A stretch of 46,564 nt of DNA from Paludibacteraceae bacterium (GTDB lineage: Bacteria; Bacteroidota; Bacteroidia; Bacteroidales; Paludibacteraceae), in contig JAFPZY010000039.1 of NCBI GenBank assembly GCA_017417025.1, forward strand, positions 1-46,564. Direction: 5' to 3'. The notes beneath the pieces are model-generated. The model saw nothing but the letters and a program-made list of their open reading frames with translations, had not been told where the DNA came from and made no database searches. Below are positions 4,843 through 33,694 of this stretch, in pieces. Both the position numbers and the translations under genes were made by a program. The stretch's first letter is position 1. Every line of letters starts with the position of its first letter.

Positions 4843-4884
4843 TAACGCCGGTACGGGCGACCGTGCCGGCACAAAACAAGAACT

Positions 4885-5007
4885 ATGAAAAAGACATATA
4901 TTTATCCGGAAATAGGAGTAATGACAATGGCAGCCGCCAATGTTCTGCAGAGCCAGAGCGGGAATAAGTTTGAGCCGGCGAAAGAGCCCGTCACCGACGC
5001 TGACTAA
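4885..5007 (+). CDS. Small peptide of the MKK-Y-xP type, 40 aa
   Basis: This 40-codon frame begins MKKTYIYPEIGVMTMA and ends EPVTDAD, with no signal peptide or TM segment. Short Bacteroidales proteins beginning MKK-Y--P----V and carrying a mid-length Leu/Gln/Ser stretch are familiar hypotheticals, often close to surface-protein genes. This resemblance is from memory and was not searched. The frame lies 136 bp after the InlB-repeat gene, within a repeat-rich spacer, with an A-rich sequence before the ATG as is usual for Bacteroidota starts. The function is unknown; a precursor-peptide or regulatory role is possible but only speculation. Confidence 0.55.
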   Translation: MKKTYIYPEIGVMTMAAANVLQSQSGNKFEPAKEPVTDAD

Positions 5008-5798: not shown

Positions 5799-5985
5799 TG
5801 GTGGTTGAAGAGAAGTGTGGTTGGTGGTTGAAGAGAAGTGTGGTTGGTGGTTGAGGAGGAGTTTGGTTGGTGGTTGGAGAGAAGTTTGGTTGGTGGTTGA
5901 AGAGGAGTTTGGTTGGTGGTTGAGGAGGAGTTTGGTTGGTGGTTGAAGAGAAGTGTGGTTGGGGGGTGAGGAGGAGGGTGGTTGG
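5799..5985. repeat. 23-bp G-rich minisatellite, about 8 copies
   Basis: About eight 23-bp units of the form ggtggttgaRgaGRagtKtggtt. The conserved ttg falls at 23-bp steps (5807, 5830, 5853, 5876, 5899, 5922, 5945, 5968). The plus strand carries many GG pairs separated by 1-4 bases (GGTTGGTGG), the pattern of two-tetrad G-quadruplexes. All three minus-strand frames are open across it because the unit contains no stop, and 23 is not a multiple of three, so coding is unlikely. Confidence 0.9.
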
Positions 5986-6048
5986 GCGGCGGGAGGTGGC
6001 AATAATTGGCGGCGGGAGAGGAAAGTGGAAAATGAAAGTGAAAAAAAT

Positions 6049-6079
6049 TTGCATATATGAAAAAATAGCCGTATCTTTG
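6049..6079 (+). promoter_or_regulatory. Bacteroidota promoter of the TPR-ribH-aspartokinase operon
   Basis: TTG at 6049-6051 and TATCTTTG at 6072-6079 are separated by 20 bp, an exact fit to the Bacteroidota housekeeping promoter. The predicted start lies near 6086, giving a 5' UTR of about 105 nt before the ATG at 6193. Confidence 0.85.
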
Positions 6080-6873: not shown

Positions 6874-7365
6874 GTGACTACAGATTTGTCGAAATACGAC
6901 GCTTCGAAACTGCCTGGTGCTGATGTCCTTGCGCATCAGCACTATGCAATTATAGTGGCGGACTGGAATGCGGAGATAACCTACAAGCTCTCCAACGGTG
7001 CGCTTCACACGCTGCACAAGTGCGGTATAGACGACAACCACATCCGCGTGATACATGTGCCGGGGACAGTGGAGCTGACTTACGCCGCCGCGCGCTGCAT
7101 GGACAAGTATGACGCAATAATAGTCATCGGGTGCGTGATAAGGGGCGACACCCCGCACTTTGACTATGTGTGCCAGTCGGTGACACAGGGTGTGACGCTG
7201 CTGAACGCGCAGGGGAAGACCCCTGTGGTGTTCTCGGTGCTGACTGTGGACGACAAGGAGCAGGCCAAAGAGCGCGCCGACGGCAAGTTGGGCAACAAGG
7301 GGGTGGAAGGCGCAGTCACCGCGATAAGAATGGCTAACCTCAACATCAAAAGCAGGAAGTCTTGA
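6874..7365 (+). CDS. ribH: 6,7-dimethyl-8-ribityllumazine synthase
   Basis: Catalyses the penultimate step of riboflavin synthesis, condensing 5-amino-6-ribitylamino-uracil with 3,4-dihydroxy-2-butanone 4-phosphate. The 163-residue protein has the family's usual length and motifs: a substrate-binding W at the start of the core (ADWNAEIT), PGTVELTYAA, GCVIRGDTPHFDYVC with the catalytic His, and a C-terminal GNKGVEGAVTAI-M segment. Translation appears to begin at GTG (6874), 3 nt after the TPR gene, and it overlaps the next gene by 4 nt. The other riboflavin gene in the window, ribBA at 38 kb, lies far away. No FMN riboswitch was seen upstream. Confidence 0.95.
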   Translation: MTTDLSKYDASKLPGADVLAHQHYAIIVADWNAEITYKLSNGALHTLHKCGIDDNHIRVIHVPGTVELTYAAARCMDKYDAIIVIGCVIRGDTPHFDYVCQSVTQGVTLLNAQGKTPVVFSVLTVDDKEQAKERADGKLGNKGVEGAVTAIRMANLNIKSRKS

Positions 7366-23798: not shown

Positions 23799-26700
23799 TT
23801 ATTCCACGCGCTTGCCTTGTGCGTCGTAGCTTTGTCCGTTCTGGCGGATATAGAGGTTGCCGTTAATCATCACTTTCTCGGCTCCGGCTGTGCGGAGTTC
23901 GCCGCCGTTGCAGCCTTCGAGCGATGTGACGGTGTTCTTGCGGTTGATGCGCAGAGCGAAGCGGTTGTCGCATGTGCCTTTTTCGAGAACGGCTGTGTAG
24001 TCGCCGAGGCTGAGGTTGGTCTCGCGGTTAAGTTCGTAGTCGATGAGCGTAACGTCCATTCCGTCAGTGCCTTCGGGCATTGAGAAGGTGTATTCGCCCG
24101 CCTTGTTGGCTATGAGTCCCACAGCTACAGTCTTGTCGGCGGCAGGCACTTGCAGGCAGTTGGCACCCATGCGGACCGGTGTGGTGGCAGTCGGGTCGGG
24201 CATGTAAGCCTTCTCAAGCAGTGTATAGACGATGGTCTGGTTGCCGTTGGCGTTCTTGACGAGGTCGTTGTTCATGTCGTAAGCGTCGGTGACATCGTCG
24301 CGGAACTCGATGTAGGTGTGGTCGGCATCAGTGCCGTCCTGTGCGATGTGCAGGTCAAGTGTCCACTTGTCTTTCTCTTCAGCGGTGGCTGCTCTGCGTG
24401 CTGCGACAGACGGAGTGGTATTCTTTGCCTGCCAGTTGATTGTTCCGGCGAACTGTACGAGATAACTGTACATGGTCTGGAAGGTCTCTGTGCTTGTAGA
24501 TGTTTCTACTGAGAACTCGTTAGTTGCGGCATTCCACTTGTAGTAGAATCCGACAGCTCCGGGTGTCAATATCTTATCTGCATTGGCAGGTTGTTCTGTT
24601 GTTGCCGGAGTGCTGAAACTTGCTATGTTCCAGTAAGCGGGTACGCCTATTACGTTCCAGTTGCTGTCCCAGATGTTGCGGTTGTTGCGCGTGATGGAGC
24701 AGGTGTGTGCAGGTATGGTGACAGATGTCAGCGTGCCTGTGATATCGCCGATATTGTCGGCTGAAGGGAAGTAGAGATGTACGCTTGTAACACCATTTAC
24801 CCAGATGGCATCTTTTTTCATCTCGTCAAGGTCAAGTGCGAGTACATAACCCATGCCTTTCCGGAGAACAAGAGTGTCGCGCATTGCAGGCATGACGAAT
24901 TTCCATCGTGTGGGCGAATCCACCCATTGTCCTTCTCTTGCGCGTGCTTCGCCGTCGTAATACTCAAGTATCCACTGTTTGCCGTATTCTCCAATGCCGA
25001 AGATTTCGCTTGCTTTGACATTGAAGGGGAAGCTGATCCAGTACAATGCACGCTCGGCTTCAGATTTTGTGTCATCTAAGATGGTGGTCTTATTGAACTC
25101 CATTACGCCGTAAGCCTTTTTCACGTCAGTCAGTTTGTTGCCGCTTGTGAATGTCAGTTGTCCGGCATCTCCGTTGTGGCTGCGGATGAACATGATGTCG
25201 GCCTCAATCGGTTTTATACCGGTTACCTCCATGTCTTGTGGCAGGTAGGCGGCAATCAGTTTGTTGGTCTTGAAATCGTAGATGATGCGGAACCCGAGCC
25301 ATTCATCGGTAGAGCCGCCAAGTATCTGTTCGGTGTTAGCATCAGTATAATCTCCTGTCTGGCCGATAAAGTACTGCTCGTGGTTAGCATCGCTGAAACG
25401 ATAGTTTGCCGTAACTTTGACACGTGCACCCGGTTTGGCCTCCAGGTCAAGTTGGTAAATCCAGTTGTTGTTGTCCTTGAAGGTTGTATCGTTACCGGCA
25501 AAAGCGGAATGTGTATATTTGCTGCGAATCTGATTTGCGTCACCTGCCGAAATGCGCAGGAAGGTCTCCTGCCAGTCAGTGGCACCGTTGATGTACGCGC
25601 GTTTGAGTTCGTTGGTGTAACTGTTGTAGCTGAAGCGCACGTTGGCGGCGTATGCCAGATACTGGCGCGGTTTGCTGTCAACCAAACCCAATACATCGTC
25701 GCCGATAAGGGTGTCGGTGATTTGCTCGTTGTAGTCGTTGGCAATGATGCACTTGACGTTCTTGTCTCCTTCCTCAATCCATTTGCAGAAGTAGTAGTCG
25801 AAGGTTGAGGATTTCGCCTTGTTGAAGTTGATGGTGTTGAGGTTCATGATGTTCTGTTTGTAGTTCACCCATCCGCCCGGAGCATAGTCGGTCTTGATGT
25901 AGTAGTTGCCCGTATAAAGCTTCACATTGTTCAGGATGACGCTTGCTACATCATTGCTGTTGCCGGTGCCGTCCGTAATGTCCATGTCAAACTCATACAC
26001 TCCCTTGCCTTTAGTGAAGTTGCTTAATGCTATATCCGTTCCGCTTGTCCAGATCGGATTAGAAGAACCGTCCAATCCGGAACATTTCTGGAGTTTCAAA
26101 CTTCCACCTGTTGTTGCTGGATCAATATATACGGACTTCTTGACGCTTGTAGAAGAAGCATTATCCGGTTTGATGATGTCCGAATAGAGGTGTTTGTTCG
26201 TATCATAGGTATAATCCAAGCGGTAGTCACCTGCGGAAATAGGATAGACTACAGAGAGCTTCATCTTTTCGCCTGCCTGCTCGATATAGAGGGTGTAGTC
26301 ACCTTCCGCAGTCGGGGTGATGGTAAAGCCTGCAGGCGTTGCATCCTCCACCAAAGTTATATTGGTGCAAGCTGCGTTTGTAATCGTTGCAGATACTTTG
26401 TAGAACTTGCCTGCCGCATTAGCAATGAAGAAGGTATGAACATTCGTGTTTCGGAAGCGATATTTCGCAATAAGCGTTGTGCCGTTGTTGGCGGTCGCTT
26501 TGAATATATCCACCTGATTGTCCTTGTTGCCTTCTTTCAGATAGTAGCCGGCATCTTGATTAGCCACCGTATTATACTTCATCCAATAACCATTATCGAA
26601 ATATTTGGTGGAGTTGGATGTGTATTTTTCCGTGTGTTCGGGTACGTACATATTCAGATATTTGCTGTAGTCCGTGCGATATACGCCATTTCCCTCATGG

Positions 26701-29700
26701 AATTTACCCCATACTCCATCGGGATAAGCACTACCACTCATCCATTTATCGGAGAATGCAACATTTCTGTTTCCACTTGTGGTGAACGAACGCGGTACAT
26801 AAGCCCAGTAGATATTCGACTCTGCGCTAATCGGGTTCATCTCTGCATTGGTACTAAGGTTGTTAACACCTCCATATACTTCTCCGTCATTAGCCCATCC
26901 TACATTGAAGTAAACGTACATCTTGTTTACATCCCATAGTTTGCCGCCGGTTTCTTCGTTCTCGTTGCGGAAATAGATCTTGTCCAGCTCCACGAAGTTG
27001 GCGGTGAGGGTCTGGCCGGTAGTCTCGCCTACGCCTTTACCTTTTAGAGTGGTATTATTGTTATCCTCATTATTGAAGCTGCCTGTAATCTCATAGTCAG
27101 TACCTTCAGTATTTACCCAACCGGCGAAATAATAACCTGTTGCAGGAACGGCTTTAATGGAGCAATTGGTGGCCACGCCTACATTCACAGATGATGCTGC
27201 ATCTTCCCACGAATCACCATCCCAATACTGAATCTTACCATTCGTAGCGGACAGAGCAACCGTTGTCATATTCTCCGTATATTGCGCATAAACGTCTGCG
27301 TTTGTGGCGATCGAAGTGATGGCGTTCTCACTAACTACAGAAGCCGAGGTGCTACCATCCGTAGAGGTGTACCAGCCCTTAAAGGTATAACCCGGAGAAT
27401 GTGTTTCGGTGAAGGTGATATTCTCACCCGCCCCCACATAGTCTCCTGATACGAGAGAGCCGGATGCGCTTGCCGTAGCCGTCACGCCCGTACCTCCCGA
27501 GCCGTAACCGAAGTTGACGGTATAGGCTGCAGGATAAGTAACATCAATAGTGGCTTCGCCCGGTGTATAAGTAAAGATATAGTATCCTGCTGCATCTGTT
27601 GTAATCTGCAAATTCGTTTCCACGTTGGGAGTTACGGAGGATGCAGAGTGACTTGCACGAGAAAGATTTATACCTTCTTTACCCAACCATTCTCCGCCAT
27701 AAATAGGTTTGAAAGCATAAGTACTTTTGGCTGCAAGAAAAATAGTGTATGAATAAGGGCCACTACCAGTCATGTTGAAATAACGGAATAAGCCTGAACT
27801 CGCAGTTTCCTCAATCATCAGTTGCGGATCCAGAGATGGACAATCGGCCATTGCTCCTAAACGCTTGTGACCAGATTCGTTGTTTTCAGTGGACACATAC
27901 CAATAACATTTTTCGCTTCCAGGGCTCACTGTATTGTCTGATTGAGTGGTAGTGCCATTATCAGTGATGATGAAATTATTGTACGTAGGATCAAATGAAT
28001 AAGAGTACCATCTATATACAACACCAGCCTCTCCCTCTGCCGTCATGTTCACACCGGGGAAGACGGCATTCTCCTCTTTGACACCTCCATTTGCAGACTC
28101 ATCTGTATAACCATAAATTTTAGGTTGACTATTTGTTTTCGGGATGCGCACATGAATCGTATAGTTCCCTCCTGCACGTGTAGTCGCAGTTTGAGACATC
28201 TCGCCCTTGGCTTTAATGCTGGTGGCATATGCCTTGAATGTATATTCCGTTCCTGCGGTTAATCCTGTGAAATATTTTGTAAAGGAAGAACCGCTTACGG
28301 TAGCAGGATTTACAGGATCTTCGTCCCCCTTTTGGAATCCATAAGCTTCCAGTTCTCCCGGTGTCGTTCCATAACCGCCGTAAGAGGTTATAGTTCCGGT
28401 TAGTTTAATCTGTGTACAACTGATTACCTCACATGCAATGGTTACGGTAGGAGTAGTAAGATTATCTTGAGTCAAAGTGTATTTTTTAGGATTGTTTGAA
28501 TTGCTCACATATGTCATGTGCCAATATGTTCCTGCAGCAAATGTACCGGAGCTGGAACCGGTCGTGCATGCGTTGGTTTCCTCTCCATTGTTATTGTTAT
28601 TAATAATGAAATAAGTCCATTTGCTGTCGAGTGTCACCTTCTTCCAATTCTTAACACCTTCCGCCACTAAAATGTTGTCGCCGTCGGAGCCGGGGAATGT
28701 GGACTTTTTATTATCACCGCTAATATACTGATATAATTTTACTGTTTCCCAATTGCAGTTATTCTGAACGTAGATATTCCAACGCTCATAGACGGTAAGG
28801 TTATAAGTCTTGGTATAATTATTACCGCCAATAGTCATTGTTACGGTAATTGTCTTGGCTCCTGTTGAACCCGGAGTATAACTGAATGTCGCTCCCGAAT
28901 AATTACTGGTCGTTGTACTTACTGTACAATCACCTGTATTATCTGTTAAACTCCATGTGACGGATGTCCCGCTGCTTACATTACTTGATTTGGCCGTAAA
29001 TGTTAATGCGGAAGAGGGGTTCTCTCCAATCCACAATTCCGTAGCATTCCCAGCTGCTGTCAGCGTGGCGACACCCGGATCTTGTGTCCAGTAGGCATAA
29101 AGAGTCGTCGGACCCGTACCGTCGCTTGGCCAAGTGGCAGCACTGGAACCGTCTGCATTATAGTATTTCGTTCCGCTTCCACTTGTGCCGGTATAATAAC
29201 CTGCAAACGTGTATCCGTCACGTGTCGGCATGGTAGCACTAGGCATTGTAGAACCGCAAGTGGCTACTATAGAAATAGAACCAGTAGTGCCGTTTTGACG
29301 GTCAAGAGTGACATCGTAAGCGAGAGTGTTCCAAGAAGAGTTGGCATACATCTTACCTGCATAGGTGGAGTTTGTTGTCCAAGAGTTACTAATCACTTCT
29401 TCTTGGCTCTCATAAGTACTTCCGTTATACAATTGGAATTGCAAATACAGACTTGCCTCACGTTGGTCTGTAAATGTAGCTGAATAGATAGGCGTACCAT
29501 TATATGTCATGGATGTGTTGGTCATTGTGGTCTGTTGCCACAAGTCCCACAGATTGGAATATTTGCGGTTCAGCTTGACGGTCTTATTTGTTGACGTCAC
29601 ATAATAGACCGTCGTGGAAGTATTGGCATCAAACCCATCATCCTTCCAAGTGTGAGCATCGCTATAATAGCCTATATATATTTTATTCTCCCAGTTGGAA

Positions 29701-30098
29701 TTGGCAGACCAAGATCCATCAGGAGACCATTTATATGCGTAGTTATTATCGCCCCAATGACCATCTCCTCCAGAGTTGATTTCCAAATACTTTAAACCTC
29801 CAAATTCATCCGGCAACGAAGCGGAATAAACTGTGTATCCATGATAGGTGTCGGAAGTTTTAGTCATCATACCATTGTCCCAGTTGTTATCACCATACTG
29901 GTGGTTATAATAAGCGTTTCCATCAGTAGTCCAACCGGTTTTACCATTTAATAGCAATTGCGGAATGGTGTAGATGGTACGATAAGTCACATCCGCCCAC
30001 ATCTGTCCCACGCAGAGTGTGAGGAGGGCGAATAAAGTAAATAACCACCGTGCTTTGCTCCGCACGACTGATTTGAAATTTGAGTGTTTGTTTTTCAT
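23799..30098 (-). CDS. Giant secreted InlB-repeat / starch-binding-like surface protein, 2099 aa
   Basis: A basic N-terminus (FKSVVRSKARWLF) and a hydrophobic core ending QMWAD form the signal peptide (about residues 1-35). Residues 36-240 contain aromatic-rich beta modules. A clear InlB/Flg_new repeat lies at about 255-335 (YDVTLD--NGT ... RDGYTFAGYYT ... LYAYW). CBM26-like modules with W/Y-rich strands occur at about 440-560 and again at about 650-740 (KIYGYTDES ... FPGVNM). Further InlB-type repeats lie at about 870-1050. The C-terminal 500 residues include YWISFPFNV and WNVIGVPAYWN blocks. The last residues (MINGNLYIRQNGQSYDAQGK) share a tail motif with two other secreted proteins here. 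Probably a surface glycan- or host-binding protein. The 5' two-thirds are more A+T-rich than the 3' end. Confidence 0.85.
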   Translation of the reverse strand: MKNKHSNFKSVVRSKARWLFTLFALLTLCVGQMWADVTYRTIYTIPQLLLNGKTGWTTDGNAYYNHQYGDNNWDNGMMTKTSDTYHGYTVYSASLPDEFGGLKYLEINSGGDGHWGDNNYAYKWSPDGSWSANSNWENKIYIGYYSDAHTWKDDGFDANTSTTVYYVTSTNKTVKLNRKYSNLWDLWQQTTMTNTSMTYNGTPIYSATFTDQREASLYLQFQLYNGSTYESQEEVISNSWTTNSTYAGKMYANSSWNTLAYDVTLDRQNGTTGSISIVATCGSTMPSATMPTRDGYTFAGYYTGTSGSGTKYYNADGSSAATWPSDGTGPTTLYAYWTQDPGVATLTAAGNATELWIGENPSSALTFTAKSSNVSSGTSVTWSLTDNTGDCTVSTTTSNYSGATFSYTPGSTGAKTITVTMTIGGNNYTKTYNLTVYERWNIYVQNNCNWETVKLYQYISGDNKKSTFPGSDGDNILVAEGVKNWKKVTLDSKWTYFIINNNNNGEETNACTTGSSSGTFAAGTYWHMTYVSNSNNPKKYTLTQDNLTTPTVTIACEVISCTQIKLTGTITSYGGYGTTPGELEAYGFQKGDEDPVNPATVSGSSFTKYFTGLTAGTEYTFKAYATSIKAKGEMSQTATTRAGGNYTIHVRIPKTNSQPKIYGYTDESANGGVKEENAVFPGVNMTAEGEAGVVYRWYSYSFDPTYNNFIITDNGTTTQSDNTVSPGSEKCYWYVSTENNESGHKRLGAMADCPSLDPQLMIEETASSGLFRYFNMTGSGPYSYTIFLAAKSTYAFKPIYGGEWLGKEGINLSRASHSASSVTPNVETNLQITTDAAGYYIFTYTPGEATIDVTYPAAYTVNFGYGSGGTGVTATASASGSLVSGDYVGAGENITFTETHSPGYTFKGWYTSTDGSTSASVVSENAITSIATNADVYAQYTENMTTVALSATNGKIQYWDGDSWEDAASSVNVGVATNCSIKAVPATGYYFAGWVNTEGTDYEITGSFNNEDNNNTTLKGKGVGETTGQTLTANFVELDKIYFRNENEETGGKLWDVNKMYVYFNVGWANDGEVYGGVNNLSTNAEMNPISAESNIYWAYVPRSFTTSGNRNVAFSDKWMSGSAYPDGVWGKFHEGNGVYRTDYSKYLNMYVPEHTEKYTSNSTKYFDNGYWMKYNTVANQDAGYYLKEGNKDNQVDIFKATANNGTTLIAKYRFRNTNVHTFFIANAAGKFYKVSATITNAACTNITLVEDATPAGFTITPTAEGDYTLYIEQAGEKMKLSVVYPISAGDYRLDYTYDTNKHLYSDIIKPDNASSTSVKKSVYIDPATTGGSLKLQKCSGLDGSSNPIWTSGTDIALSNFTKGKGVYEFDMDITDGTGNSNDVASVILNNVKLYTGNYYIKTDYAPGGWVNYKQNIMNLNTINFNKAKSSTFDYYFCKWIEEGDKNVKCIIANDYNEQITDTLIGDDVLGLVDSKPRQYLAYAANVRFSYNSYTNELKRAYINGATDWQETFLRISAGDANQIRSKYTHSAFAGNDTTFKDNNNWIYQLDLEAKPGARVKVTANYRFSDANHEQYFIGQTGDYTDANTEQILGGSTDEWLGFRIIYDFKTNKLIAAYLPQDMEVTGIKPIEADIMFIRSHNGDAGQLTFTSGNKLTDVKKAYGVMEFNKTTILDDTKSEAERALYWISFPFNVKASEIFGIGEYGKQWILEYYDGEARAREGQWVDSPTRWKFVMPAMRDTLVLRKGMGYVLALDLDEMKKDAIWVNGVTSVHLYFPSADNIGDITGTLTSVTIPAHTCSITRNNRNIWDSNWNVIGVPAYWNIASFSTPATTEQPANADKILTPGAVGFYYKWNAATNEFSVETSTSTETFQTMYSYLVQFAGTINWQAKNTTPSVAARRAATAEEKDKWTLDLHIAQDGTDADHTYIEFRDDVTDAYDMNNDLVKNANGNQTIVYTLLEKAYMPDPTATTPVRMGANCLQVPAADKTVAVGLIANKAGEYTFSMPEGTDGMDVTLIDYELNRETNLSLGDYTAVLEKGTCDNRFALRINRKNTVTSLEGCNGGELRTAGAEKVMINGNLYIRQNGQSYDAQGKRVE

Positions 30099-30130
30099 TG
30101 TTATATTGTTTTTTTATGTTTGTTATTTTG
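29998..30130 (-). repeat. Leader repeat A (functional start of the giant gene)
   Basis: This copy covers the 5' UTR and first 34 codons of the giant secreted protein. It shares about 130 bp with copy B (30801-30934) and about 110 bp with copy C (32404-32514). Conserved parts are the A-rich UTR (aacaaacataaaaa), the ATG and the codons for FKSVVRSKARWLFT. Only this copy reads on into a long protein. Confidence 0.9.
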
Positions 30131-30136
30131 TTTGTG

Positions 30137-30406
30137 TCAGAGTGCCTTCGGGACGATGGACTTGGCTATAATGTTATTCAAATATGTACTTGCACTCTCT
30201 CCGAGAGCATGGGCGTTGCTACGAATAGCATCGCGCATATATACCGGCACTTTGATGCGCATAGAAGTGTATTGTTCCTGCTGACGAACCTTATCCTCTA
30301 CTTTAGCATCAAATATAGCACGTTCAGGCGTGCCTTTCACTGCAATATCTTGATCTATTAGTTCATCTAAAGACCATACTTGCATATCTTTACCTACTGT
30401 TTTCAT
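30137..30406 (-). CDS. Antitoxin-like protein, 89 aa (unusual domain combination)
   Basis: It lies 17 bp downstream of a HigB/RelE-type toxin gene, the usual toxin-first order. Residues 10-45 (WSLDELIDQDIAVKGTPERA) resemble the N-terminal arm of the XRE-type antitoxins that normally accompany this toxin family in Bacteroidales. The expected helix-turn-helix is absent. Residues 47-89 instead look like a ribbon-helix-helix segment: TSMRIKVPVYMRDAI, a turn, then STYLNNIIAKSIV. It is probably still a DNA- and toxin-binding antitoxin, but the combination is unusual. The family call is based on context and resemblance. Confidence 0.6.
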   Translation of the reverse strand: MKTVGKDMQVWSLDELIDQDIAVKGTPERAIFDAKVEDKVRQQEQYTSMRIKVPVYMRDAIRSNAHALGESASTYLNNIIAKSIVPKAL

Positions 30407-30423
30407 ATATTATTGGTATATTT

Positions 30424-30759
30424 TTAGATATTCATATAATACTTTCTCATTATTTGTTCCGCTCTTTCTATTTCTCTCTGTGGGACTTTCTGAGTTTTTT
30501 TAATAAATCCGTGAGTTGCTATCACCATCGCTTTTTGTTTCTTATCCCAAAACGCTAACATCCGAAATTGTCTGCCACCGTATTTGCTGCGGAACTCCCA
30601 TATTTCATTGCTCAATTTTTTGAATAATGTTGAATTGATAGTTTGGGTGGCTGCTTTTATATCTGCCAAAATTTCTTCTTTTTCGCCTTTACTCAATGAT
30701 TGCAAGAAATCTCTCGCTTCACCCAAAAAATAAACGTCAAATCGTTTGTCTAATGCCAT
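30424..30759 (-). CDS. HigB/RelE-type toxin (phage Gp49-like), 111 aa
   Basis: A type II toxin-antitoxin toxin expected to cleave mRNA at the ribosome. Residues 46-60 (NEIWEFRSKYGGRQF) and 84-98 (HGFIKKTQKVPQREI) are the two Gp49/HigB signature blocks: E-R-kyg-rQFR, then H-FiKKtqk-P--Ei--A. Basic residues suited to RNA binding are present. It is followed by its antitoxin and preceded by an orphan leader copy that ends 37 nt before its ATG. The gene is A+T-rich like the rest of the island. Confidence 0.85.
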   Translation of the reverse strand: MALDKRFDVYFLGEARDFLQSLSKGEKEEILADIKAATQTINSTLFKKLSNEIWEFRSKYGGRQFRMLAFWDKKQKAMVIATHGFIKKTQKVPQREIERAEQIMRKYYMNI

Positions 30760-30795
30760 ATTCCCTATTGCCTAATAAAGATTGCTACAAATTAC

Positions 30796-30903
30796 TCATC
30801 CCCACATCTGTCCCACTCCGAGGGTGAGGAGGGCGAATAAAGTAAATAACCATCGTGCCTTGCTCCGCACGACTGATTTGAATTTAGAGTTGTTGTTTTT
30901 CAT
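30796..30903 (-). pseudogene. Orphan signal-peptide leader B, 35 codons
   Basis: It reads MKNNNSKFKSVVRSKARW and continues through a hydrophobic stretch to GVGQMWG, then stops. It is nearly identical to the first 34 residues of the giant secreted protein at 30098. No mature protein follows; the HigB-type toxin starts 37 nt later. It is either a decapitated copy of the secreted gene, a recombination scar, or a small leader peptide that is translated in its own right. Confidence 0.75.
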
Positions 30904-30934
30904 TGTAGTTATTTTTTATGTTTTTATTATTTTG
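30801..30934 (-). repeat. Leader repeat B
   Basis: An about 130-bp direct repeat of the giant gene's 5' UTR and signal-peptide codons. It begins immediately after the stop codon of the DUF1016-like chimera (30935-30937) and ends inside the leader's last codons. Differences from copy A are scattered point changes and small UTR indels. Confidence 0.9.
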
Positions 30935-31657
30935 CTATGATAGGTTATGTTGTATTTGATAAATCTCTTTTTGTCTTTCAATCTTCTTACGCAATTGTTC
31001 TTGCGTAGGAAGGTATAGTTGATATTTAGTGGCAAAAAGTTGTTCGTTACCTTTCAATACGGAAAAACGTGCTATATCTTCATCTGTATCCGCACATAGT
31101 ACAATTCCTATGGTGGGGTTGTCATCTTTACCTTTCTTCAGTTCATCATACATCCGAACATACAATAGCGTTTTGTAATGCGACCAACTGAGCTGAAAAG
31201 ATTTTGGATTCGCTGTGTCCAAAATGTTCGGATAACATTGGTAAAAGCGGACATATTTATACAAACTGCTAAAGTCAAATCCACCTCCGTAGGCACAAGT
31301 GAGTTCTTTGGATAGCGATGTAATCGTTTGATTGCCGTATAACTCTTTGCGTGTGTTATTTTCTAAATTCTCCTCATAAATACGCTTGCCAAGCAGCCAA
31401 TTCCGATGAATCAGAACGACATCAACAGCTCTATATGCTAATTGACGGGCAGATTCGACGATTTGTTTGGCATCAGCAATCAAATCTGTAGTCTTGTTAT
31501 ATGCGATAGTCTCTAACATGTTTTTTAGAATGGTGGCCATCATATATAAGCCGCGTTCTGTGAAAGCGACAGGATTATAATGACTTTTTATTAAGTTATG
31601 CTTAATCCGCTCATCTTCAGTGTTTTCTACGGATGTGGTCAAAATTTTTGACCTCAT
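30935..31657 (-). pseudogene. ORF6N / DUF1016 (YhcG) chimera lacking the nuclease core, 240 aa
   Basis: Residues 1-50 resemble the end of an ORF6N phage-regulator domain (YNPVAFTERGLYMMATILKN). Residues 62-165 match DUF1016 N-terminal sequence (LLGKRIYEENLEN, ELYGNQTITSLSKEL, GGGFDFSSLYKYVRFY, SFQLSWSHYKTLL). From residue 166 it matches the extreme C-terminal part (YVRMYDELKKGKDDNPTIGI, SVLKGNEQLFATKYQLYLPT). The section between, which in intact family members carries the PD-(D/E)xK catalytic Asp and Glu-x-Lys, is missing, so residues about 165/166 are an in-frame deletion junction. The frame upstream of Met-1 continues as ORF6N-like sequence to a stop near 31715. I judge it a decayed double fusion, probably inactive. 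Confidence 0.75.
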
Positions 31658-31727
31658 CTCTGCAACTTCTTGATTAATCGCCTTTTGTCGTCTTTTTGCG
31701 TAGTAAGATCAAGTTGATAAATACATG

Positions 31728-32024
31728 TTAAATGGCAATGCCGGTTCGTATAATATCATCATATAAAAGCGATGGTTGTTCCGCTTCTATCAATACGGGC
31801 TCAATTAGAGTGCTTATTCGGCGTGTCTTATTCCACAATTGCGAACTAATATCCAACCAGTCAGCCTGTAGCTTTGGTACAACAACGGCAACATCAATAT
31901 CGCTGTCCTTACGAGCCGTCCCCTTGCTATATGAACCATACAAGTACACTTTAGCATCGCTCACTATGGGTAGAATAGCCTGCTTGTAAGAATTGACTAT
32001 ACCTATAACTTGTTTTTTATCCAT
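31728..32024 (-). CDS. Minimal nucleotidyltransferase (MNT), MntA-like
   Basis: A 98-residue polymerase-beta-fold nucleotidyltransferase. The signature GSYSKGTARKDSDIDV lies at residues 30-45, with the two metal-binding Asp residues at 42 and 44. In HEPN-MNT pairs the MNT protein acts as antitoxin by adding nucleotides to the HEPN partner; this is established for some members and inferred here. Its start overlaps the HEPN gene by 22 nt, indicating coupled expression. Confidence 0.85.
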   Translation of the reverse strand: MDKKQVIGIVNSYKQAILPIVSDAKVYLYGSYSKGTARKDSDIDVAVVVPKLQADWLDISSQLWNKTRRISTLIEPVLIEAEQPSLLYDDIIRTGIAI

Positions 32025-32395
32025 ACTTGTAATTGCTGTGTGTTATCAATTATTAATCGACATGTGTTTTTGTCCAACATCTTACTCAATTGGTCTTTGT
32101 ATGACGGATAACGCGCTGCAATGTTCATTGGCATTATCCGGGCAAGAAACAGATTCTGTTCATCGCTCATCATATCCGCTAATCCGGATTGATTAGCCAA
32201 CAAAATAAGGTTGTGTGTGTAAGGAGCATCTTCTGACTGAGTTTTGCACCAATATGCTTTCAGCGTCTTCTCAATCACCTGATGGCACATAAATGCGACA
32301 TATAACCATCGACCGGTTTTGTACATTGCTTCTGCCGTATCCAAATCATAATCGGCTATATCCAACCAGTATTGTATCTTTTCCTCCGTGGTCAT
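32003..32395 (-). CDS. HEPN domain protein, partner of the MNT gene
   Basis: A 130-residue all-helical HEPN protein. The N-terminal YWLDIADYDLDTAEAMYK and the central H-VIEKTLKAYW with a following YTHNL match the HEPN family (PF05168). In toxin-antitoxin pairs such proteins act as RNases, but I do not see an unambiguous R-x4-6-H catalytic motif, so activity is uncertain. The ATG lies 13 nt after the stop of orphan leader C, and the gene overlaps the MNT gene by 22 nt. Confidence 0.85.
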   Translation of the reverse strand: MTTEEKIQYWLDIADYDLDTAEAMYKTGRWLYVAFMCHQVIEKTLKAYWCKTQSEDAPYTHNLILLANQSGLADMMSDEQNLFLARIMPMNIAARYPSYKDQLSKMLDKNTCRLIIDNTQQLQVWIKNKL

Positions 32396-32403
32396 GTTTT
32401 TAA

Positions 32404-32514
32404 GCGAATCAAGTAAATAACCACCGTGCTTTGCTCCGCACGACTGATTTGAATTTAGAGTTGTTGTTTTTCATTGTTGTATTAGTTTTTATGTTTGTTA
32501 TTTTCGTTGCGTTG
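32404..32514 (-). repeat. Leader repeat C
   Basis: An about 110-bp direct repeat of the giant gene's 5' UTR and first 21 codons. The UTR part supplies the last seven codons and stop of the upstream Bro-N gene (ENNKHKN then TAA), so the junction lies inside that gene. On the other side the repeat ends at 32404, nine bases before the HEPN start codon. Confidence 0.9.
32409..32474 (-). pseudogene. Orphan signal-peptide leader C, 21 codons
   Basis: It reads MKNNNSKFKSVVRSKARW then LFT and a TGA stop created by one base change relative to copies A and B. The HEPN gene begins 13 nt later, so ribosomes finishing this leader could reach the HEPN start. Confidence 0.75.
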
Positions 32515-33390
32515 AATATCATTTTCATCAAAAGACAACTGGTGTGTCTTGCTATCTTCGACCGGACGAATATAATCACTTGCTTTAAGAGGCGACACTA
32601 TACTCTCACCTATTGTATTTTCCAATTGCTGACGCGCAGCCTTGGCTACATTCCCTCCTTCCTTGGCAACTTGCATATTCTGGCTCATCGTCTTGGGATT
32701 CTTGCGCTTTGATATTTCTGTCGTAGAGGCTTCTGCCAATGTGTTTAGAGCTAACTCTATCGTTGTCATATTGTCGCGTAGATTCTCCTTTGTCAGGCCT
32801 TTATGTTGCTTATACTCTTTGGTTGTTTTCCCGCTCCATGTTTTGGTTATCAGGTCAGTCAGTATGGCAAAATCCCGTCCTTCAGACAGTCCGGCACGTT
32901 TCCACTCATTTGTCAACTCATTACGCGCATCAATTGACTTAACCCTGTTGGCAATCCATTTATCCGAATATCCCATCTTTTTGTAATCAGCAACAGCCTG
33001 TTGGATGGAAAGTTCCGGATCTATCATCTGCTCTATACGTTTGCTTCCGACTTGCGCCAACCAGCGTTTGAGCGGCTCTGCCTTTTTCGACGGTATAGAT
33101 TGAACAATACGCAGTATCCCCTCTAAATCGGCAACATCTGTAAGGCGCATCTTTCCATCGGTTGCAAGTAACTTCAACTGCTTACAATTTGTAATCAGTT
33201 CGTCTGCTCCTTCAGTTTTTAACCGCTTCTTGACAACGGCCCAATATACGGAAGCATTTCGGGCGGTAGCCTGCTCGCTTAATACGCCGACAACATCCAC
33301 AACAGAGAAGAAGTGTTTCTCTTGTTCGTCATCCCATATTACGCGTATCTTGGCGTTTTCGAATAATTGTATATTTGTTTCTTGCCCCAT
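32482..33390 (-). CDS. Bro-N / phage antirepressor-like protein, 302 aa
   Basis: Complete version of the gene truncated at the left edge of the window. Residues 5-110 form a Bro-N DNA-binding domain: IQLFENAKIRVIWDDEQEKH, FFSVVDVVGVL, YWAVVKKRLK and MRLTDVADLEGILRIVQSIP. Residues 110-130 (KRWLAQVGSKRIEQM) resemble the link region of DinD-type proteins. The C-terminal half shares LRDNMT--EL, TTEIS and GGNVAKAARQQLE with the other copy. Such proteins are phage- or plasmid-type regulators. Two promoters lie upstream on the same strand. The C-terminal ENNKHKN is encoded by leader repeat C, so the original C-terminus may have been replaced. Confidence 0.85.
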   Translation of the reverse strand: MGQETNIQLFENAKIRVIWDDEQEKHFFSVVDVVGVLSEQATARNASVYWAVVKKRLKTEGADELITNCKQLKLLATDGKMRLTDVADLEGILRIVQSIPSKKAEPLKRWLAQVGSKRIEQMIDPELSIQQAVADYKKMGYSDKWIANRVKSIDARNELTNEWKRAGLSEGRDFAILTDLITKTWSGKTTKEYKQHKGLTKENLRDNMTTIELALNTLAEASTTEISKRKNPKTMSQNMQVAKEGGNVAKAARQQLENTIGESIVSPLKASDYIRPVEDSKTHQLSFDENDIQRNENNKHKN

Positions 33391-33497: not shown

Positions 33498-33528
33498 CAA
33501 AGTTACGAATAATTTTATATTTATGCAA
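33498..33528 (-). promoter_or_regulatory. Minus-strand promoter upstream of the Bro-N gene (proximal)
   Basis: On the minus strand TTG (33528-33526) and TAACTTTG (33505-33498) are 20 bp apart. It would give a 5' UTR of about 100 nt to the Bro-N gene and may drive the whole Bro-N-HEPN-MNT island. Confidence 0.85.
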
Positions 33529-33663
33529 GTGTTTTTGCATTTTTGTTAATTTTGTTGTCTTTTGTTGTCATTTTTTCCTGATTTGGGCCTGTATCCTCTT
33601 GTTGTTAATCAGGTTTGTGTTATGTTTACTATTCCTTATTATATAATAATACAATTCAAGCGG

Positions 33664-33694
33664 CAAAGATACAAAAAGAAATCGGAATATGCAA
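33664..33694 (-). promoter_or_regulatory. Minus-strand promoter upstream of the Bro-N gene (distal)
   Basis: TTG (33694-33692) and TATCTTTG (33671-33664) on the minus strand, 20 bp apart. Flanking sequence (gcaaaaac-cttgcata before the spacer, ctttgccgc after) is also shared with the proximal promoter, so the promoter region is probably duplicated. Confidence 0.85.

Follow-up and report, generated by a model that had tools for sequence, protein, structure and literature searches.

Leader copies and genes of the locus

We analysed a 46,564-nucleotide stretch of DNA from a Paludibacteraceae bacterium (assembly GCA_017417025.1, contig JAFPZY010000039.1, positions 1 to 46,564; hereafter the window), in which small genes of toxin-antitoxin and defence types are found directly ahead of a gene for a giant secreted protein, between copies of that gene's own leader, that is, its 5' untranslated part and signal-peptide codons. 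The assembly comprises 2.18 Mb in 64 contigs. Sequence comparison confirmed the three minus-strand leader copies at the coordinates given in a preliminary description of the window:

29998..30130, minus strand: leader A, 5' untranslated part and signal-peptide codons of the giant gene; the copy in use
30801..30934, minus strand: leader B, an orphan with an open 35-codon frame ending at the signal-peptide end
32404..32514, minus strand: leader C, a truncated orphan of 21 codons without the core found at the signal-peptide end

Against a 141-base query holding leader A, leader B is 87% identical over query positions 1-135 and leader C 91% identical over positions 2-103. The frame of leader B (35 residues) ends in GQMWG*, with the stop right after the signal peptide, and that of leader C (21 residues) ends in WLFT*, homology being lost before the signal-peptide end. 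From the stop of leader C to the HEPN start at 32395 there are 13 nucleotides (nt), which like both frame lengths agrees with the preliminary description; from leader B to the HigB-type start at 30759 there are 36 nt and not 37, as had been given. The copies form direct repeats of host sequence of about 100 bp around the modules, as a target duplication would. No large family of leader repeats was seen in the own genome, which gave the three copies and one weak match covering the 5' untranslated sequence and initial codons of another gene.

The genes and open reading frames (ORFs) of the block, with the motifs ahead of it, are as follows:

33498..33694, minus strand: two promoter-like motifs of presumed Bacteroidales type (loose motif)
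32482..33390, minus strand: Bro-N / DinD-like gene (Pfam Bro-N), first gene of the block, with its stop inside leader C
32003..32395, minus strand: HEPN-domain toxin-like gene (Pfam PF05168, 1.8e-19)
31728..32024, minus strand: MNT-like nucleotidyltransferase gene, antitoxin-like (Pfam PF01909, 5.1e-11)
30935..31657, minus strand: chimeric remnant of an ORF6N stub, DUF1016_N and part of YhcG_C (Pfam)
30424..30759, minus strand: HigB/RelE-type toxin-like ORF (Gp49, PF05973)
30137..30406, minus strand: small antitoxin-like ORF of 89 aa, named by position
23799..30098, minus strand: giant secreted-protein ORF of 2099 aa, with weak Listeria-Bacteroides repeat matches below the Pfam cut-off

Read with Pfam, the gene order stands as described before (Bro-N, leader C, HEPN-MNT, ORF6N/DUF1016 chimera, leader B, HigB-antitoxin, leader A, giant gene), the 89-aa ORF at 30137-30406 having no family in Pfam or NCBIfam. 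The later part of the Bro-N gene is DinD-like, far under the cut-off of that model, and the last Bro-N codons and stop fall within the untranslated part of leader C. The HEPN and MNT-like genes adjoin and overlap, as in type VII HEPN-MNT gene pairs. Because the nucleotidyltransferase scores 41.7 bits against the curated MntA model NF047752, under its cut-off of 60, we label it only MNT-like. The ORF6N match of the stub lies below the curated Pfam cut-off; 158 nt of the stub region are 93% identical to the DNA of an ORF6N gene adjoining a giant gene in a related genome (G083; G and L numbers denote genomes and loci). By Pfam, the window's cargo thus comprises Bro-N, HEPN, MNT-like, ORF6N/DUF1016 and Gp49 families and no restriction-modification system. 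No transposase or integrase was recognised among the six cargo ORFs, Bro-N and the antitoxin-like ORF included: five belong to other families and the 89-aa ORF is unmatched. On the minus strand from 35500 to 29001, a scan with a loose Bacteroidales-type promoter motif gave only the two matches ahead of Bro-N, and none between Bro-N and the giant gene. The block lies beside dCMP deaminase and LptF-type genes.

Recurrence of orphan leaders across the genus

The window was compared with 178 genomes of the same genus, all draft assemblies. A leader profile has matches in 107 of them, and most of the matches listed begin ORFs of well over 1000 aa. The signal-peptide end carries a core common to the different leader types (LTLGVGQMW, 27 bases). 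Its exact DNA gave 60 matches in 47 of the 178 genomes and a reversed-pattern control gave 0, so the recurrence of the leader is not due to chance. From the leader-profile matches listed we drew 84 frames that run at least 100 codons past the core, in 83 loci; these are termed giants here, including a few that are short or that run off a contig.

Core-bearing orphan leaders number 24, in 16 genomes. Fourteen of the 83 giant loci have such an orphan upstream, with four ahead of the giant in G228, and two genomes (G236, G172) carry orphans with no giant in the stretch examined. G007 and G218 carry additional copies that, like leader C, are truncated and lack the core. In 9 of the 14 loci, 20-40 nt separate the last cargo stop from the start of the giant; in 3 the two overlap by 4 nt, and in the remaining 2 there is no such gene. 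Leader-bearing giants occupy different chromosomal positions in different species; that of G083, for example, adjoins a ribosomal-protein L21-like gene (named by eye).

Across these arrays, the cargo between or beside the leaders is of the window's kinds. DUF1016, ORF6N, HEPN-MNT and Bro-N cargo was identified by similarity clusters with annotated members, KilA-N, Abi_2 and GmrSD_N cargo by Pfam, and RhuM, ParDE-like and HigBA-like cargo by eye; a toxin-antitoxin-like protein of G228 and G172 was unmatched in Pfam. When 10 of the 110 proteins upstream of giants or in arrays were submitted to PADLOC, 7 were matched, including by the dGTPase, patatin effector, PDC-S71 and PDC-M29A models. A same-strand ORF lies within 160 nt ahead of 54 of the 84 giants, a count without matched control that includes small, doubtful ORFs. 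DUF1016 genes abound in the genus, with 560 matches spread over 149 of the 178 genomes; their presence was therefore dropped as evidence by itself, and flanking repeats were taken as the criterion instead.

Taken together, the layout first noticed in the window, modules between direct leader repeats before a secreted-protein gene, is seen again in 15 further genomes, with cargo of the same kinds. The preliminary description had set against its own reading a picture in which the orphans are left over from deleted genes and are not associated with toxin-antitoxin modules in other places, and the relatives do not show this picture.

Junctions behind the leader core

We compared the 19 junctions with distinct sequences in the first 12 bases after the core. 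In 18 of these, an in-frame stop follows within 4 codons of the core, relative to a frequency of 0.223 at randomly chosen intergenic positions of these loci (nominal P 2.7e-11); because orphans were defined as frames of fewer than 60 codons, later stops could have appeared. For 12 of the 24 orphans the next called gene starts at most 52 nt after the stop, with a 4-nt overlap in G172.

Both observations bear on the origin of the orphans as remnants of full-length giants deleted in place, with the module genes between them by chance. Tandem giants do exist, since G210 carries two about 9 kb apart with similar leaders (91% identity over 103 nt). Deletion endpoints could nevertheless fall anywhere in a gene of several kb, and 18 of 19 lie at the signal-peptide end; the 12 modules that begin within 52 nt leave no room for a giant body, longer gaps not having been searched for body fragments. 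We regard such remnants as very unlikely.

The same junctions could instead reflect function, as the preliminary description had proposed in its alternative that the leaders regulate the toxins. Orphans would then be translated leader peptides or translation-coupling devices, at which the ribosome makes the signal peptide, stops by the module start and restarts. The stops at the signal-peptide end, the short distances to half of the next genes with the overlap in G172, and the lack of a scanned-type promoter motif between Bro-N and the giant gene of the window all agree with this. A regulatory role is nevertheless weakened because 10 of the 24 core-bearing orphans are broken or reduced: they have no in-frame start, contain an internal stop, consist of the core only, or have another frame running into them. 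Leader C, moreover, is truncated. Six modules begin 135-334 nt past their orphan, those of G228 and G078 behind promoter-like DNA (by eye), and other sequence immediately precedes both the G218 DUF1016 cassette and the related one of G026. As a general explanation, leader peptides therefore seem unlikely to us; peptide-based regulation at some junctions is possible, and the explanation by module import that we prefer, given below, does not need it.

Leaders and modules across species

A DUF1016 cassette is 92.9-95.5% identical at the DNA level in G214, G085 and G218 and has a relative in G026, and yet the leaders and left flanks differ among the four. G214 and G085 share identical bases behind the core, even though the core of G085 is damaged. 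Similarly, the toxin-antitoxin-like cassette of G228 and G172 has the same left junction under different leader halves, in G078 two orphans that differ in their 5' halves continue into nearly identical DNA, and leader B shares the bases behind its core with a damaged orphan of G083, with different genes after them. Five orphans for which the giant of the same locus is in hand are nearer to the leader of another species over at least 59 nt (G214, G208, G218, the fourth of G228 and the second of G078). Recurrence, the same junctions under different leaders, and mixed leader types within one array are thus direct observations.

Modules between repeats other than the leader

Among 153 relatives of the HEPN protein, nearly all titled Bacteroidales, Prevotella or kin, we sampled 80, and the 73 loci with 400 nt on either side were tested. 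HEPN-MNT pairs lie between direct repeats in 17 of 73 loci versus 2 of 176 shifted windows (P 2e-8), both repeats being within 250 nt in 9 of the 17. One of the 17 is the G007 array itself, and another (L188) resembles a duplicated gene. The leader core is present in 4 of the 80 loci, and the repeated sequence can be of other kinds: in L203 it is the 3' end of a YifB-like gene (named by eye), in L205 a terminator-promoter stretch (Prevotella ruminicola KHT3), in L233 the 3' end of a small gene, and in L220 the 5' end of a sigma-factor-like gene with the fuller copy after the module, which is the layout of the window.

For DUF1016, 40 of the 560 matches were picked by hand from the upper part of the list and away from contig ends, and 38 were testable. 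Here, 10 of 38 genes lie between direct repeats compared to 0 of 82 in the control (P 4e-6). Other genes of the same 120 loci lie between repeats in 1 of 222 cases, this being the RhuM-like cassette of G007. Two DUF1016 genes lie between direct repeats of 82 nt with 97.6% identity in L286 (oriented positions 4849-4930 and 5981-6062) and of 181 nt with 97.8% identity in L289 (4473-4653 and 6125-6305); both are candidate recent insertions.

The repeat therefore need not be the leader, as sequence of other kinds is duplicated around HEPN-MNT and DUF1016 modules elsewhere. The window appears to exemplify something more widespread, the insertion of small defence or toxin modules accompanied by duplication of a long stretch of host DNA. 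Among the various targets, the signal peptide is a recurrent one in this genus, perhaps because many genes share its core.

To compare the repeat copies, we counted differences in 12 chosen comparisons (8 leader and 4 HEPN), omitting L188, the G210 giant pair, which served as control, and leader B versus leader C of the window. Differences affect 61 of 299.7 synonymous versus 61 of 1110.3 nonsynonymous sites (P 1.8e-13). In the coding repeats of the HEPN loci the counts are 26 of 81.7 versus 16 of 311.3, a pattern that would fit divergence as working genes in separate lineages; the excess in leaders is weaker.

These results also bear on a dedicated site-specific recombinase acting on the core, either integron-like or like the recombination boxes found in the signal-peptide region of mycoplasma surface genes. 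The core is indeed the part that different leader types have in common, modules join right behind it, and HigA-like frames are fused to it in G152 and G078. On the other hand, the core varies at two codon third positions, as coding sequence does, the duplicated stretch in leader pairs of the same type far exceeds it, and HEPN-MNT and DUF1016 modules elsewhere lie between unrelated repeats. No recombinase was found among the array proteins run through Pfam, which are only part of all array proteins. We consider a dedicated recombinase distinctly unlikely. As a specific candidate for the driver, a serine recombinase was rejected: resolvase-like genes (by eye) are found near other signal-peptide genes in G215 and G075 and not in the listed orphan arrays.

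Proposed repeated insertion at the 5' end of the giant gene

We hypothesize that leaders B and C are recombination scars of repeated module insertion at the 5' end of the giant gene, by homology-aided import from relatives, an explanation that we favour with some reserve. More specifically, small toxin-antitoxin or defence modules would be inserted repeatedly at this place, each insertion leaving a second copy of the leader, with untranslated part and signal peptide, across the module. The giant gene would keep a working start and the older leader would become an orphan. The most likely route would be import of DNA from a related species in which the module already lies beside a homologous leader; the incoming leader, or just its 27-base core, would pair with the resident leader, and the module would be carried in by recombination of the RecA type or of a one-sided, homology-aided type. 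Two-sided homologous recombination alone does not explain the first duplication, and the one-sided type (homology-facilitated illegitimate recombination) could. The block would presumably be read as one transcription unit, and the prompt end of the short leader frame may keep the module from being fused to the signal peptide.

A number of observations weigh against this hypothesis. For 25 orphans, leader C included, the nearest leader belongs to another species in 12 cases and to the same locus in 12, with 1 tied, and some of the 12 best matches to other species are limited to the core; leader B is about equally near to leader A and to the leader of G083. In leaders alone, 35 of 218 synonymous versus 45 of 799 nonsynonymous sites differ, a modest excess, part of which is explained by selection on the copy in use. 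Two pairs of the HEPN repeats resemble each other, and 4 of the 10 DUF1016 repeats are promoter-like sequence common to loci, which brings that count to between 6 and 10 of 38. The junctions of G228, G236 and G032 have 11 of 12 bases in common, and some junctions, these among them, may not be independent. Furthermore, 69 of the 83 loci have no core-bearing orphan, and leader repeats without cargo occur in G208 and G234, so duplication may precede cargo. Repeats may be mis-joined in draft assemblies. Finally, we found no close strain pair with and without a module at one leader. Using DUF4837 (present in 70 of 91 genomes) and LptF (81 of 91) as synteny markers, only G036 and G049 among the same-genus genomes of the marker scan carry the two no more than 15 kb apart on a single contig; in both genomes the whole block is missing, giant included, according to gene calls.

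A stronger form of the import hypothesis, which we think rather unlikely, is a leader-anchored cassette system. The signal-peptide core would serve as a standing docking site onto which promoterless defence and toxin modules are loaded, to be expressed from the promoter of the giant gene, downstream of a signal-peptide frame obliged to terminate immediately, and exchanged between species, with the giant always re-supplied with a leader. If this is true, the array and the giant protein would be one linked trait.

Relation to known systems

We know of no settled answer to how minimal defence or toxin-antitoxin modules move without a transposase. Nobusato in 2000 and Furuta in 2010 reportedly described insertion of restriction-modification genes with long target duplication. 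The statement of the preliminary description that no system of this form has been described was too strong, given that such duplications are reported for restriction-modification genes (PMC3874152, PMC3031569). The insertion of some restriction-modification systems is said to be accompanied by target duplications that are long and variable, on the order of 100 bp (PMC3874152), an insertion type recognised by genome comparison (PMC3031569), likewise for Helicobacter pylori (PMC1643837). The mobility of toxin-antitoxin and restriction-modification systems has been likened to each other (PMC2654758). The resemblance lies in a small addictive module, no known mobile element and direct host repeats of about 100 bp. 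In contrast, the modules described here are toxin-antitoxin, HEPN-MNT, DUF1016 and other defence genes of Bacteroidales, they form arrays at one leader, and no empty-site allele was found.

In Vibrio, type VI secretion clusters carry arrays of orphan immunity genes, for which anchored one-sided recombination has been proposed (PMC5361080). There the arrays are explained by successive imports anchored on a conserved upstream segment, as envisaged here, in which new effector-immunity modules displace effector genes while old immunity genes stay. Unlike in Vibrio, the conserved segment here is a leader with its signal peptide, the giant gene is retained, and the modules carry unrelated defence genes. 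The arrays also resemble those of integrons, with small cassettes, toxin-antitoxin pairs included, and a repeated element between (super-integron, PMC2654758). In contrast to integrons, the repeat is a coding leader and no integrase is present among the annotated array proteins; attC folds were not searched. Defence islands and insertion hot spots gather variable defence genes at one kind of place. The leader arrays do likewise, except that their place is directly before giant secreted-protein genes at varying chromosomal positions.

In the literature searched, mostly without subscription papers, nothing was found on direct-repeat-flanked HEPN toxin-antitoxin modules, on Bacteroidales signal-peptide recombination sites or shufflons, or on target duplication by Bacteroidetes toxin-antitoxin systems. 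The pattern suggests an uncomplicated route by which defence genes could be mobilised although they bring no transposase. Insertion footprints give mappable insertions and predictions of empty sites, which can be checked in strain collections, and the leader arrays add a case in which several insertion events would pile up at one place while the host gene stays readable.

Additional leader arrangements

Some leaders deviate from the layouts above. In L154 (G234), two leaders about 280 nt apart (oriented positions 6904 and 7181; 93% identity over 107 nt) precede a giant frame, and no gene is called in the interval separating the two leaders, which represents either a duplication without cargo or one with lost cargo. 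In G152 (L060:8464-12000) and G078 (L023:12262-18999), a HigA-type helix-turn-helix antitoxin-like part, named by eye, is fused in frame to the core and the giant; an inner start could still yield the signal peptide. A 129-aa ORF of G228 (L055:2199-2588), STAS-like by eye, enters an orphan core in frame and stops there. Lastly, L106, L110, L121, L157 and L158 show the leader repeat in abbreviated form: some 35-95 nt, reaching up to or close to a start codon, are repeated before the giant and also before one or more upstream ORFs, some of these being ParDE-like by eye.

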